Below are positions 7,370 through 11,144 of a stretch of DNA of 64,000 bases, one piece after another; the stretch's first letter is position 1; the number at the start of each line of letters is the position of its first letter. The notes under the pieces were generated by a model. That model was not told where the DNA came from and searched no databases. It was given only the letters and a program-made list of their open reading frames with translations. The DNA is from Asanoa hainanensis (GTDB lineage Bacteria; Actinomycetota; Actinomycetes; Mycobacteriales; Micromonosporaceae). The translations under genes and the position numbers were made by a program. The stretch is from positions 124,001-188,000 of the forward strand of contig NZ_FZPH01000008.1 in the NCBI RefSeq assembly GCF_900188485.1. Reading direction: 5' to 3'.

Positions 7370-8209
7370 GTGGGCTCCTCCGCCGTCACCGGCCTCGTGG
7401 TGGCCGCCGCCGTGCTGGTGGTGGCGACCGTCTTCGGTGTGTGGCGCAACCGGCACGACGGCCGCCTGCGGCCCGTGGCCGCGGGAGCAGTCGCGCGCGA
7501 CACCGACACACGCGCCTCGGGCGGAAGGGAACACCTGACCGCCACCAGCCACGACCGATCAGCCGCCGTCGGCAGCAACGCACCGGCCTCCGGGCACAAC
7601 GGCGGCCCCGGATCGGCCGATGGCCGCGAAGCGGGTTTGGCCGGCGGCAGCGCGGCGGGTTTGGCCGATGGCCACGACGCGGGTTTGGCCGGCGGCAGCG
7701 GGGTGGGCTTCGCGGGCGGCAGCCGGGTGGGTTCGGTCGACGGCCTTGGGGCGGGTTCGGTCGATGGCCACGACGCGGGCTTGGCTGGCGTTGGCGGGAG
7801 CGTCCCGGCCGAGAGCGTGACATCAGGAGCGCTGGCACTGCCCAGCGACGACCGTCCCGCGACCCTGGCCACCGACAGCACCCACCCGGCGGTTGACCGG
7901 ACGCTCCTGGACCTCGGCGTCGATCCGGCGACGCCGGTCACCCTGTTGCAGTTCTCGTCTGCCTTCTGCGCGCCCTGCCGGGTCACGCGGCGCGTTCTCG
8001 CGGACGTGGCCGCGATGGTCGACGGGGTCACCCACCTCGAGGTCGACGCCGAGAGTCACCTCGACGCCGTGCGCGCGCTGGACATCTGGCGTACGCCTAC
8101 CACGTTGATCGTGGCCGGTGGGCGGGTCGTGCAGCGCGCCTCCGGCGTGCCGGCGAAGGCCCAGGTGGTCGCCGCCGTCGCGCCGATGATCGATCAGGCC
8201 GAGCGATGA
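7370..8209 (+). CDS. Thioredoxin-family protein with an eight-repeat linker
   Basis: The 279-residue protein starts with one membrane segment (VTGLVVAAAVLVVATVFGVW), so the rest is likely tethered outside or at the membrane. Residues 81-144 are eight 8-residue Gly/Ala/Asp-rich repeats. The C-terminal 110 residues are a thioredoxin fold with SSAFCAPCRVTRRVL, an intact CxxC redox pair, and the cis-proline strand IWRTPTTLIV. It is probably a thiol-disulfide reductase or a thiol transfer protein. The start is the GTG at 7370. Its stop codon overlaps the start of the Cys leader peptide at 8206 (ATGA), and DUF4395 follows, a neighbourhood linked to sulfur metabolism in actinobacteria. Confidence 0.85.
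   Translation: MGSSAVTGLVVAAAVLVVATVFGVWRNRHDGRLRPVAAGAVARDTDTRASGGREHLTATSHDRSAAVGSNAPASGHNGGPGSADGREAGLAGGSAAGLADGHDAGLAGGSGVGFAGGSRVGSVDGLGAGSVDGHDAGLAGVGGSVPAESVTSGALALPSDDRPATLATDSTHPAVDRTLLDLGVDPATPVTLLQFSSAFCAPCRVTRRVLADVAAMVDGVTHLEVDAESHLDAVRALDIWRTPTTLIVAGGRVVQRASGVPAKAQVVAAVAPMIDQAER
7610..7801 (+). repeat. Eight tandem 24-bp units inside the thioredoxin gene
   Basis: Eight in-frame 24-bp units encode the 8-residue pattern G-[LSF]-[AV]-[DG]-G-x-x-[AV], for example GLADGHDA and GLAGGSGV. Two DNA variants alternate, one with GATGGCCACGAC and one with GGCGGCAGC, as expected from unequal crossing over. The array forms the linker between membrane anchor and redox domain. Confidence 0.85.
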
Positions 8210-8274
8210 ACGACAAGCTCACCCGCCGTCGCACCGTCGACCTTGGACGTCTTGCCGCGAGTCTCTGTCGCTGA
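8206..8274 (+). CDS. Cysteine-containing leader peptide upstream of DUF4395
   Basis: A 22-codon ORF begins at the ATG that overlaps the thioredoxin stop (ATGA). It ends with the codons for VDLGRLAASLCR followed by TGA. The ending V-D-L-x-R-x-A-S-x-x-C-R matches the short leader peptides found before sulfur-assimilation and sulfurtransferase genes in Streptomyces and mycobacteria (LHVDLCRLASAICR-like), where a near-terminal Cys codon is read as a cysteine sensor. Here the single Cys codon is next to last. The stop codon lies in the loop of a hairpin. Family membership is by pattern memory; the cysteine-sensing role is inference. Confidence 0.65.
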   Translation: MNDKLTRRRTVDLGRLAASLCR

Positions 8275-8305
8275 GCGACGAGACCAGCCCTGGCCCGACG
8301 AGACC
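8261..8305 (+). promoter_or_regulatory. Attenuator-like alternative hairpins at the leader stop codon
   Basis: The block GTCTC-T-GTCGC (8261-8271), covering the leader Cys codon, pairs with GCGAC-GAGAC (8275-8284) around the stop codon. The sequence CGACGAGACC occurs twice, at 8276-8285 and 8296-8305, so the same 5' arm could pair with either copy. A ribosome stalled at the Cys codon would hide the 5' arm. This fits translational or transcriptional attenuation of DUF4395. Confidence 0.5.
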
Positions 8306-8321
8306 CAACCCGAGGCATCCG

Positions 8322-8768
8322 ATGCTGCTCGACCCCCGTGGCCCGCGCTTCGCCGCCGGCCTTACCGCGATCGTTTTCGTGCTTGTCCTGATTACCGGCG
8401 CGTGGTGGCTCGCGCTCGCGCAGGCCGTCGTCTTCGCCGTCACCGCGATCGACCCCCGCAAGGGTCCCTACTCGCTGCTCTTCCGCACGCTGGTGGCACC
8501 CAGGCTCAAGAAAGCCACCGAGCGCGAGCCCGCCGAGCCCGTGCGGTTCGCGCAGGCGCTCGGCGGGGTGTTCGCGATCGTGGCGGCCATCGGCTTCGGT
8601 GCCGGCGGCACTGCCGGCACGGCCGTCGGGATCACGGCGGCCGGGTTCGGGTTGGCCGCCGCGTTCCTCAACAGCGCCTTCGGGCTGTGCCTCGGGTGCG
8701 AGCTCTACCTGGCCACGCGCCGGATGACCGGGAGGCCGATGGCCGCCCGGGTCAGCACCGACGACTAG
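8322..8768 (+). CDS. DUF4395 family membrane protein
   Basis: This 148-residue protein opens MLLDPRGPRFAAGLTAIVF and contains FAVTAIDPRKGPYSLLFRTLVAPRL and SAFGLCLGCELYL, the features of DUF4395 (four membrane spans and a conserved C-terminal CxxC). The family commonly sits beside thioredoxins and sulfurtransferases and is thought to be involved in thiol or sulfur handling at the membrane, but no reaction is established. ATG 8322 is 47 nt after the Cys leader stop, with a weak GAGG ribosome site. The stop overlaps that of the convergent response regulator by 4 bp. Expression is probably controlled by the leader and hairpins just upstream. Confidence 0.85.
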   Translation: MLLDPRGPRFAAGLTAIVFVLVLITGAWWLALAQAVVFAVTAIDPRKGPYSLLFRTLVAPRLKKATEREPAEPVRFAQALGGVFAIVAAIGFGAGGTAGTAVGITAAGFGLAAAFLNSAFGLCLGCELYLATRRMTGRPMAARVSTDD

Positions 8769-9433
8769 AACTTGGGCGCGTCCGGGGCCTCGAGCAGGCC
8801 CAGTCGCAGCGCGGTCATCAGGGCCTGGGCCCGGTTGGCGGCGCCGAGCTTCTCGTAGAGCTTCGAGATGTGCGTCTTGGCCGTCGACTCGCTGACGAAG
8901 AGCTGCTTGGCGATGCCGGCCACCGACATGCCGTCGGCGAGCAGGCGGAGCACCTGGCCCTCGCGCGGGGAGAGCTGCGGGCCCGACGGGGCCAGCCGGC
9001 GCTTCATCGCCTCCGCCAGGTCGGCCGCGGTGAACGCCGACGGCGACGACGCGGCGTGCCGGGCGGCGGCGACGACCTCGTCGGCCGGGGCGGTCTTCGG
9101 GACGAACGCGCTGGCGCCCGCCTCGAGCGCGCCGAACAGCTGGTCGTCGCCCGCGTACATGGTCAGCACGACGATGCCCATCGTCGCGCTCGACTTGCGC
9201 AGGGCGCGGGTCGCCTCGAGGCCGCTGCCGTCGGGGAGGCGCAGGTCCATGATCACGACATCGGGCTGCAGAGCGCCGGCCTGGCGTACGCCCTCGGCGG
9301 CGGTGGCGGCCTCGCCCACGACCTCGAACTGGCGGTCGCGCTCGAAGGCGTGCCGCAGGCCCTTGCGGATCAGGTCGTGATCGTCGACCAGGAGGACCTT
9401 GGTGCGAGTGGCCGGCGATGGGCTGGTCGTCAT
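8765..9433 (-). CDS. NarL/LuxR-family response regulator
   Basis: This 222-residue two-domain regulator has a receiver domain with DD near the N-terminus (VLLVDDHD), the phospho-acceptor aspartate in VVIMDLRLPDGSG, Thr in VVLTMYAG and Lys in FVPKTAP. A LuxR-type helix-turn-helix follows (LSPREGQVLRLLADGMSVAGIAKQLFVSESTAKTHISKLYEKLG). It should bind DNA as a phosphorylated dimer. The gene lies 7 nt downstream of its histidine kinase in a minus-strand operon that starts with fadD, so its target may include fatty-acid genes (inference). ATG 9433. Confidence 0.92.
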   Translation of the reverse strand: MTTSPSPATRTKVLLVDDHDLIRKGLRHAFERDRQFEVVGEAATAAEGVRQAGALQPDVVIMDLRLPDGSGLEATRALRKSSATMGIVVLTMYAGDDQLFGALEAGASAFVPKTAPADEVVAAARHAASSPSAFTAADLAEAMKRRLAPSGPQLSPREGQVLRLLADGMSVAGIAKQLFVSESTAKTHISKLYEKLGAANRAQALMTALRLGLLEAPDAPKF

Positions 9434-9440
9434 GCTCGGG

Positions 9441-11144
9441 TTACTCCCCTTCTGATGCGGTGACGCTATCGCGCACGCTACCGCGCCGCGGTGGTGTGCC
9501 GACTACCACCGCCACGGTCGTGCCGGACGGGCTTCGCGGACTGATCTCCAACCGGCCTCGGATACGTTCCGCTCTCTCCGCCATGATCGCAAGACCGTAA
9601 CGGCCGTCTGGGCGCTGGTCGGCGATGCCCTGACCGTCATCCGACACTTCGATCTGTGCGTACGGCGGATCGATGGAACACGAGACCCACAGGTTAGTGG
9701 CTCCGGCGTGTTTTCGGGCGTTCGTGATCGCTTCCTGTGCGATCCGCAGGAGTTCGGCCTCCGTGGCCGCGGGGAGCCGGGCGGTCGACTCGTCGAGCGT
9801 GACGTGCACCCGCAGCCCACCCGAGGCACCGACCGTCCGCGCGTACTCGGAGATCGCCGCAGCCAGACCCCCCTGCCGGTCGACCTCGGACCGCAGCTCG
9901 AACAGTGACAACCGCAACTCGGTGATCACGCGTGTCACCTCGCCGCGCAACGTCCGGAGCTCCTCGGCGGTCTCCTTGGCGTCGTCGGGGAGCGTCGCGA
10001 GCGCGTTGTCAATCCCATATCCGACCATCACGAGCTCCTGCGCGACCCCGTCGTGGATCTCGCGGGCCAGCCGCTGCCGCTCCTCGTTGGTCGCCAGCGA
10101 GCGGACCTCGTCGAACAGCAGCGCCGCCTCCAGGCGCAGCGCGGCCGGACCGGTCAGCCCGGTCACCCGCTGCACCACGACCGGCGGGTAGGCGCCGGAC
10201 ACGTCGGCCTCGATGATCACCAATCCGACGGTACGCACGCCGGCCACCAGGGGCACCACCAGCGCGGACACGTCACCCCGACGGTGGGAGCGGGCCTGCG
10301 ACCGGCTGGCCGTGTACGGCTGCTGGCTGGCCCACGCCTCGGCGATCGCGGAGTCCGCGTCGAGGCTGGTCTCCCAGTCGACCCGGTCGACGCCCGCCTG
10401 GGCGAGCACCACCAACCGCCCGCCGCCGCTGGCCGAGAGCACCGCCGCGCGGTCGGCCCGGGCCACCCCGCGCAGCTCCTCGACCAAGTGCTCGGAGATG
10501 CCACCGGGGTCGAGCGTGGCGCCGGGCAGCTGCCGGGCGACGCTGCGGAGCTGGGTCAACAGCCGGGTCGCCTCCGCGTACGGCTGGGGCCGTCCCGCCT
10601 TCTCCCGTTGCTGCATGATCCGCTGCAGGGTGGACGCCGCCAGCGTGCCGAGCGACGCCAGGATCAGCCATTGGGCCGCGACGACCAGGTAGCCGGGCTT
10701 GGCGATCAGCGGATCGTCGCCGGTCGAGCTGATCGCGCCGCCGACGACGAGCGCCAGCGTGGCCGTGCCGAGCAGCGCGGCGCTCTCCCGGGACCGCCGG
10801 CGCAGCGCCGTCACGGTCAGCGGGACCGACAGGTACGGCAGCAGCGCGGCCGCGCCGATGCCCTGGCCGAGCGCGTTGCTCGCGGTGTGCTCGGCGACCT
10901 GGCTGGCCCCGATGCCGACCACGATCACCTCGGCGAACCGCCCGAGCGGGGCGAGCACCGGGTGCCGGGGCGCGATCACGGCGGGCAGCCCGGCGACGAT
11001 CAGCAGCGCGACCCACCACAGCTGTTCCAGCTGTTGCGTGGTGAGCAGCACGAGGACAGCGACGAGCGCGAGCATCACGATCCGCGCGGCCACGGCGAGC
11101 GGGTGGGCGCGGATCGGCGTCGGTGCGGGCGCCTCAGGGGTCAT
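9441..11144 (-). CDS. Membrane sensor histidine kinase (HisKA_3, GAF)
   Basis: This 567-residue sensor kinase has five or six N-terminal membrane segments (residues about 15-165). A GAF-like cytoplasmic domain follows at about 210-345 (DRAAVLSASGGGRLVVLA...VSALVVPLVAGVRTVGLVII). The HisKA_3 phospho-acceptor helix is LAREIHDGVAQELVMVGYGI, with His in REIHDG. The ATPase domain has ITNARKHA (N box) and VSDDGQGI (G1). The ATG at 11144 overlaps the fadD stop (11141), so the two are translationally coupled, and the response regulator is 7 nt downstream. The signal is unknown; the coupling suggests a link to acyl-CoA or membrane lipid state. Confidence 0.92.
   Translation of the reverse strand: MTPEAPAPTPIRAHPLAVAARIVMLALVAVLVLLTTQQLEQLWWVALLIVAGLPAVIAPRHPVLAPLGRFAEVIVVGIGASQVAEHTASNALGQGIGAAALLPYLSVPLTVTALRRRSRESAALLGTATLALVVGGAISSTGDDPLIAKPGYLVVAAQWLILASLGTLAASTLQRIMQQREKAGRPQPYAEATRLLTQLRSVARQLPGATLDPGGISEHLVEELRGVARADRAAVLSASGGGRLVVLAQAGVDRVDWETSLDADSAIAEAWASQQPYTASRSQARSHRRGDVSALVVPLVAGVRTVGLVIIEADVSGAYPPVVVQRVTGLTGPAALRLEAALLFDEVRSLATNEERQRLAREIHDGVAQELVMVGYGIDNALATLPDDAKETAEELRTLRGEVTRVITELRLSLFELRSEVDRQGGLAAAISEYARTVGASGGLRVHVTLDESTARLPAATEAELLRIAQEAITNARKHAGATNLWVSCSIDPPYAQIEVSDDGQGIADQRPDGRYGLAIMAERAERIRGRLEISPRSPSGTTVAVVVGTPPRRGSVRDSVTASEGE

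Follow-up and report, generated by a model that had tools for sequence, protein, structure and literature searches.

Between a thioredoxin-like gene (trx) and a DUF4395 gene of Asanoa hainanensis lies a 22-codon open reading frame (ORF). It is conserved, it encodes a leader peptide, and cysteine supply is probably what it senses. On balance, it is best read as a leader of the Ms5788A kind placed in mid-operon, where the time that ribosomes dwell at its UGU codon would control DUF4395 separately from trx. The strongest new point, which lay outside the argument of a preliminary description of the locus, is a lock on that codon: all 53 DUF4395-linked leaders have TGT as the final Cys codon of the core. 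Positions below and in Table 1 are those of the window, meaning the whole 64-kb stretch of DNA that was analysed.

Table 1. Features of the trx–leader–DUF4395 unit and its downstream neighbour
Feature	Position	Strand	Basis or remark
Thioredoxin-like gene (trx)	7370-8209	+	ORF list; first gene of presumed transcript
Leader ORF, MNDKLTRRRTVDLGRLAASLCR*	8206-8274	+	22 codons; ORF list, NCBIfam match
Presumed sensing Cys codon, TGT	8266-8268	+	in leader ORF
Leader stop codon	8272-8274	+	sequence
Spacer, leader stop to DUF4395	47 nt	+	sequence
Hairpin, Cys and Arg codons in 5' arm, UGA in loop	8261-8284	+	folding
CGACGAGACC, copy 1	8276-8285	+	exact match
CGACGAGACC, copy 2	8296-8305	+	exact match
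CCTTGG inside leader, partner of DUF4395 SD region	8241-8246	+	minimum-energy fold
CCGAGG, DUF4395 SD region	8310-8315	+	minimum-energy fold
GAGG, presumed Shine-Dalgarno (SD) of DUF4395	8312-8315	+	sequence
DUF4395 gene	8322-8768	+	Pfam PF14340; last gene of unit
Response regulator gene	8765-9433	-	convergent; overlaps DUF4395 stop by 4 bp

The trx product matches Pfam PF00085 over residues 189–270 (E 5e-7) and has a CAPC motif, and its N-terminus, read by eye, is a probable membrane anchor. The linker from this presumed anchor to the thioredoxin domain is Gly/Ala-rich and is encoded by a degenerate 24/48/72-bp tandem repeat (7613–7790). The DUF4395 protein matches its Pfam family at E 4e-38 and belongs to what we take to be a family of membrane proteins with no assigned function. 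Orthologues in three Asanoa records, the nearest named genomes, share 80–92% protein identity with it; its predicted structure is helical (mean pLDDT 94.9), and its CLGC motif is near-invariant, with C123, G125 and C126 each kept in 90% or more of 42 sequences. A fold search with the DUF4395 model returned no match that stands out. Beyond the unit, the response regulator has the MadR family as its best NCBIfam match, at a sub-threshold score, and is followed by a histidine kinase-like frame (9441–11144) whose kinase label was given by eye. On the other side of trx, an Rfam match to the Pseudomonas sRNA P10 (7224–7295, minus strand; 26.2 bits where 37 are needed, E 0.0011) is likewise sub-threshold, lies inside a methyltransferase-like ORF and is probably due to chance.

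The preliminary description had joined the ORF to trx by an ATGA and likened it to actinobacterial cysteine leader peptides. The ORF is indeed present, with its start overlapping the trx stop, and the kinship is borne out by a conserved core and by two NCBIfam matches, both sub-threshold: 29.5 bits (E 4.3e-7; curated cut-off 45) for NF042933, the Ms5788A family of Cys-rich leader peptides, and 23.7 bits (E 2.6e-5; cut-off 27) for NF042934, named 'putative leader peptide'. With its single Cys codon, the leader is not Cys-rich as NF042933 members are; it is related to both families, but diverged and sub-threshold. Its codons behave as coding sequence. They are under protein-level constraint: over 35 Micromonosporaceae leader cores, pN/pS is 0.21, against 2.1 and 3.4 in the two wrong frames and 0.23 for DUF4395 codons 2–18 at the same loci; in Asanoa alone, leader codons 1–22 give 0.10. 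The core Cys is kept in all 35 cores, and the residues C-terminal of it differ between loci in number and kind. The leader thus has the arrangement expected of a cysteine-responsive ribosome-stalling attenuator, a short conserved ORF with a Cys codon near its stop, upstream of the gene presumed to be controlled.

At E ≤ 1e-10, 149 of 300 family genomes contained relatives of DUF4395, and 71 named loci were added. After weaker matches were left out, this gave 212 DUF4395 loci (30 + 111 from the family search and the 71 named), of which 196 are distinct. Leaders were called above 15 bits with an HMM of the core, whose seeds were members of the same locus set plus the three-Cys leader L004 of A. 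hainanensis itself. By this measure, which counts the seeds, a leader precedes DUF4395 at 53 of the 196 distinct loci and is absent at 143. It occurs in five of six Asanoa genomes, namely the five that carry this DUF4395 gene (genus label g1, 5/5), in Micromonospora (g4, 23/23, plus locus L067), in Phytohabitans (g31, 3/4) and in the genera labelled g11 (3/3) and g13 (4/4). None was found in g29 (45 loci), g17 (11), g32 (6), g44 (6), g7 (5), g39 (4), g22 (4) or some smaller genera, nor at the Micromonospora pattaloongensis locus (L030), and several of the genera without a leader have trx running directly into DUF4395, by overlap or abutment. Conservation in relatives, on which the preliminary description had made its case depend, was thus found on comparing orthologous trx–DUF4395 loci, and Asanoa, Micromonospora, Phytohabitans and further genera share the placement between the two genes.

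The coupling to trx is as regular as the placement. The trx gene lies upstream of the leader in 41 of 42 loci tested, and in 38 of those 41 an in-frame leader start (21 ATG, 17 GTG) overlaps the trx stop or lies directly against it, most often in the form ATGA or GTGA; many loci hold other in-frame starts too. The gap from leader stop to DUF4395 is 30–120 nt in most leader loci and about 30 nt in many from Micromonospora. This tight junction would also suit a relay ORF, a relic of the cysA-operon leader that passes ribosomes from trx to DUF4395 and senses nothing, and so would the single Cys that remains where L004 has three, as well as the many relatives that do without a leader. A relay, of course, could have any sequence, whereas the core and the UGU codon are strongly constrained, and the distance from leader stop to DUF4395 speaks against it as well, which makes this reading improbable.

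A cysteine-sensing leader is also in keeping with the company that DUF4395 keeps. The order leader–DUF4395–rhodanese–DUF1416, which is that of the cysteine-leader sulfur operon, was found at 10 of the 53 leader loci, one of which (Mycolicibacterium L071) has a polycysteine leader. By neighbourhood, this order ties DUF4395 to sulfur metabolism, as had been suggested from the Asanoa locus, where the gene after the leader is DUF4395 only, and it places a family of unassigned function beside cysteine and sulfur genes. Judged from gene order in the sequences compared, the four-part arrangement may represent an older sulfur operon, with the trx–leader–DUF4395 unit of Micromonosporaceae split off from it.

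When the genome of A. hainanensis was scanned with NF042934 at E ≤ 10, three of 17 matches looked credible: one before rhodanese–DUF1416 (39.4 bits), the ORF in the window (21.5 bits, E 0.0031, the second-best place) and one ahead of a nitrite/sulfite reductase gene (17.9 bits). Among the other 14, 13 fall inside open frames longer than 250 codons. The first of the credible three is the leader MGTFLTKRRAVDLCRVATCLCRPVS (L004:1492-1569), which has three Cys, precedes rhodanese and DUF1416, and reaches 61 bits against NF042933, above the Ms5788A cut-off of 45. The leader before the reductase (L006:1489-1599, minus strand) ends in HVDYGRVRSAMCPAH and weakly matches the Ms4527A leader family; it overlaps the open frame of the reductase, if not necessarily the gene as counted from its true start. 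Two further DUF4395 matches occur in the same genome, L002 (minus strand) and L003, and inspection by eye showed no leader ahead of the L003 copy.

The lock on UGU sets the presumed sensing codon apart from the other Cys codons compared. The other Cys codons of the same 53 leaders are TGC 31 times and TGT six times, those of the adjacent DUF4395 genes 103 and three times, and those of 35 CDS-like ORFs in the window 80 and 10 times; five of the 53 loci have a GC content of only 46–48%. Fisher tests, uncorrected for shared ancestry, give p 5e-39 when the comparison is with the DUF4395 codons and 2e-18 when it is with the remaining Cys codons of the leaders. The lock extends to the wider NF042934 family, of which 116 leader places were surveyed (54 loci given by searches, 60 hand-picked from lists, plus L004 and L006). 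Since NF042934 at E ≤ 0.001 occurred in 17 of 246 genomes of the phylum, largely from a single class, and in 92 of 101 order genomes, the survey samples Actinomycetota unevenly. A Cys stands nine residues past the conserved Asp (Asp+9) in 104 of the 106 places scored and is lacking there in two; its codon is TGT in 99 and TGC in five, two of the latter belonging to one polycysteine form. Of the ten places outside this count, six read TGT. Other Cys codons in the surveyed leaders are TGC 94 and TGT 28, and the genomes are mostly GC-rich, with UGC prevailing and UGU otherwise little used. Flanking codons vary across the family, so the lock is on the codon and not on a longer motif; within Micromonosporaceae, the AGC CTC before the Cys is well kept (31 and 33 of 35). 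No report of a UGU lock in these leaders was found in the open-licence PMC literature searched, where DUF4395 came up in just two papers; Canestrari 2020 may report the lock.

A synonymous lock of this kind is unexpected of a working peptide, and it argues for a decoding sensor over a functional micropeptide, for instance a thiol peptide linked to thioredoxin. Such a peptide would account for the strong conservation of amino acids, including the invariant core Cys, and for the near-constant trx upstream. Protein function, however, has no need of UGU in particular; the residues after the Cys vary, and the same core stands before other genes, such as those for rhodanese and nitrite/sulfite reductase. 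A micropeptide is therefore a very improbable reading, even more so than a relay.

The sensor would operate as follows. The ATGA overlap would let ribosomes that leave trx begin again on the leader. With ample Cys-tRNA, they would read the lone UGU and finish, and DUF4395 would be poorly expressed; with Cys-tRNA scarce, they would dwell at UGU, altering the fold or the occupancy of the spacer, and DUF4395 would be expressed. As trx lies upstream of the leader, it would be unaffected, and DUF4395 would be controlled apart from it. We infer that ribosomes would stall, that cysteine would be the signal, that control would run in this direction and that the readout would be translational, by unmasking of the SD; so too a response to cysteine and an uncoupling of trx from DUF4395, as first proposed for the locus. 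Translational attenuation by dwell at UGU is the likeliest readout.

What the RNA itself contributes is less uniform. The preliminary description had proposed a two-way hairpin, in which the Cys arm pairs with either of two copies of CGACGAGACC. The first half of this proposal stands in the window: the arm GUCUC(U)GUCGC (8261–8271) forms ten pairs with GCGACGAGAC (8275–8284), leaving the stop codon UGA as the loop, and the 33-nt stretch 8258–8290, picked after the fold had been seen, has a folding energy of -13.7 kcal/mol (z -2.83, matched by 1 of 200 shuffles). Folding of the wider region is less striking, with z -1.36 for 8255–8321 and -1.22 for the whole 140 nt. On paper, the arm could pair with copy 2 too. 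The second half fares poorly. CGACGAGACC has two exact matches only in the window, where chance gives a mean of 0.73 and at least two copies in 18 of 100 shuffles, so its count alone is not significant; neither full copy was found in four congeners, and the GACGA core of copy 2 is kept in all five Asanoa. A hairpin at the same place appears in four of the five Asanoa folds (the window, L026, L028 and L029, not L027). Against shuffled spacers, the Cys-arm fold has a mean z of -1.28 in the five Asanoa, -0.17 in 22 Micromonospora and -0.67 over the 40 usable of 42 loci, with p < 0.05 in eight of the 40. Uninterrupted pairing of arm and spacer fell short of significance in every one of the five Asanoa species (lowest p 0.079). 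RNA structure is, in short, weakly conserved, and the two-way hairpin is no conserved trait of the locus.

A second structural route to control would run through the SD of DUF4395, for which the best anti-SD match is CCGAGGC (-5.9 kcal/mol). In the window, the minimum-energy fold closes the SD by pairing CCUUGG with CCGAGG; the CTT Leu codon that takes part is found only in the window among the five Asanoa, the other four having CAC. The cost of opening the SD was modelled in 42 loci, once with the full RNA and once without the part that ends at a ribosome placed on UGU, 11 of the 53 leader loci having been dropped for want of an ATG or GTG at the inferred start. In favour of stalling, leaders of g11, g27 and g31 close the SD, and opening is eased with a ribosome at UGU: the mean cost falls from 10.9 to 4.6 kcal/mol in g11 (three loci), from 14.3 to 6.7 in g27 (one locus) and from 8.2 to 5.0 in g31 (three loci). 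The drop is small in the window (4.5 to 3.3 kcal/mol), and in 23 Micromonospora loci the mean rises slightly, from 3.2 to 3.7. Overall, the cost falls by more than 1 kcal/mol in 16 of the 42 loci and rises in 18, including Asanoa L026. Counting against the model at the Asanoa locus, the SD partner lies upstream of a UGU-stalled ribosome, so simple masking does not free the SD. Also counting against a stalling leader are the one Cys codon, the two NCBIfam scores below cut-off and the 143 of 196 loci without a leader, some with trx directly overlapping DUF4395.

The main rival readout is Rho-dependent attenuation, in which ribosomes would release at the leader stop and a C-rich spacer would recruit Rho unless shielded by a ribosome stalled at UGU. 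In favour of Rho, leader spacers taken together are rich in C and poor in G (C 0.52, G 0.25) next to 35 leader-less trx–DUF4395 spacers (C 0.36, G 0.33), a comparison that excludes very short spacers and the last 14 nt of the others. Neither an intrinsic terminator nor a σ70-like promoter was found at 8150–8900, which also counts for the mid-operon leader; the lack of a terminator suits Rho as well. In the accessible portion of one study, mycobacterial Cys leaders are likewise predicted without terminators, and Rho is put forward for them (PMC1262725). The bias in C may, however, merely reflect low structure; it is less pronounced in Asanoa (C 0.44, G 0.28), and the spacers are short: this one has just 47 nt, and many at Micromonospora loci have about 30. 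Rho is accordingly an unlikely readout, if a better one than relay or micropeptide, and dwell at UGU is preferred.

A broader proposal, which we put forward tentatively and with more doubt than the reading of this one locus, is that actinobacterial cysteine leaders form a single class of decoding sensors. Their locked UGU, nine residues past the conserved Asp, would be read by wobble by tRNA-Cys(GCA), the R-R-x-V-D-x-x-R nascent chain would aid the stall, and extra Cys codons would be optional; between trx and DUF4395 in part of the Micromonosporaceae, the sensor would be reduced to one codon, controlling one operon gene by cysteine. Bacteria generally have one tRNA-Cys for both Cys codons, and tRNA-Cys(GCA) reads UGU through a G-U wobble. 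Because the same tRNA serves both, a simple tRNA-charging model does not explain the lock, which bears on whether decoding kinetics, beyond amino-acid supply, set the sensor.

Among known systems, TnaC-type leaders are short peptides with conserved residues that are linked to Rho. The Asanoa leader shares the conserved short peptide and may share a Rho readout; signal and sequence differ. The Rhodobacterales cysS attenuator uORFC-8-2, as described in the accessible part of its report (PMC8632094), similarly holds the Cys codons of its upstream ORF in a stem. It differs in having tandem Cys codons and an intrinsic terminator and in belonging to another bacterial class, and UGC dominates there, so the UGU lock is no rule of all Cys leaders. 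A reannotation of S. lividans covers eight leaders, none of them described as cysteine-dependent in the portion available (PMC8079986). Members of NF042934, annotated as cis_reg_atten, share the RRxVDxxRxxxxxC core, and single-Cys forms are widespread among the places surveyed; the leader in the window differs in its score (23.7 bits vs 27) and in having DUF4395 as its target.

The closest comparison is with Ms5788A itself, the NF042933 leader upstream of Msmeg_5788/cysA2 in M. smegmatis. Ribosome occupancy of this Cys leader is described in the accessible part of one paper (PMC4633059), and three others, likewise seen in part, describe cysteine-responsive control in this species as translation attenuation, credited at second hand to Canestrari 2020 (PMC13236596, PMC9031893, PMC13091356). 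Both leaders carry the core L-T-[KR]-R-R-x-V-D-x-x-R-[VL]-A-x-x-L-C near the stop, and a link to sulfur operons joins them through relatives of the Asanoa locus, the polycysteine form standing before DUF4395–rhodanese–DUF1416 in Mycolicibacterium L071. Ms5788A has a cluster of Cys codons where the Asanoa leader has one, and mycobacterial leaders, as far as the available descriptions go, head a leaderless mRNA, whereas the leader studied here sits behind trx inside an operon. This difference suggests that a known type of leader would also work within an operon, beyond the operon's head.
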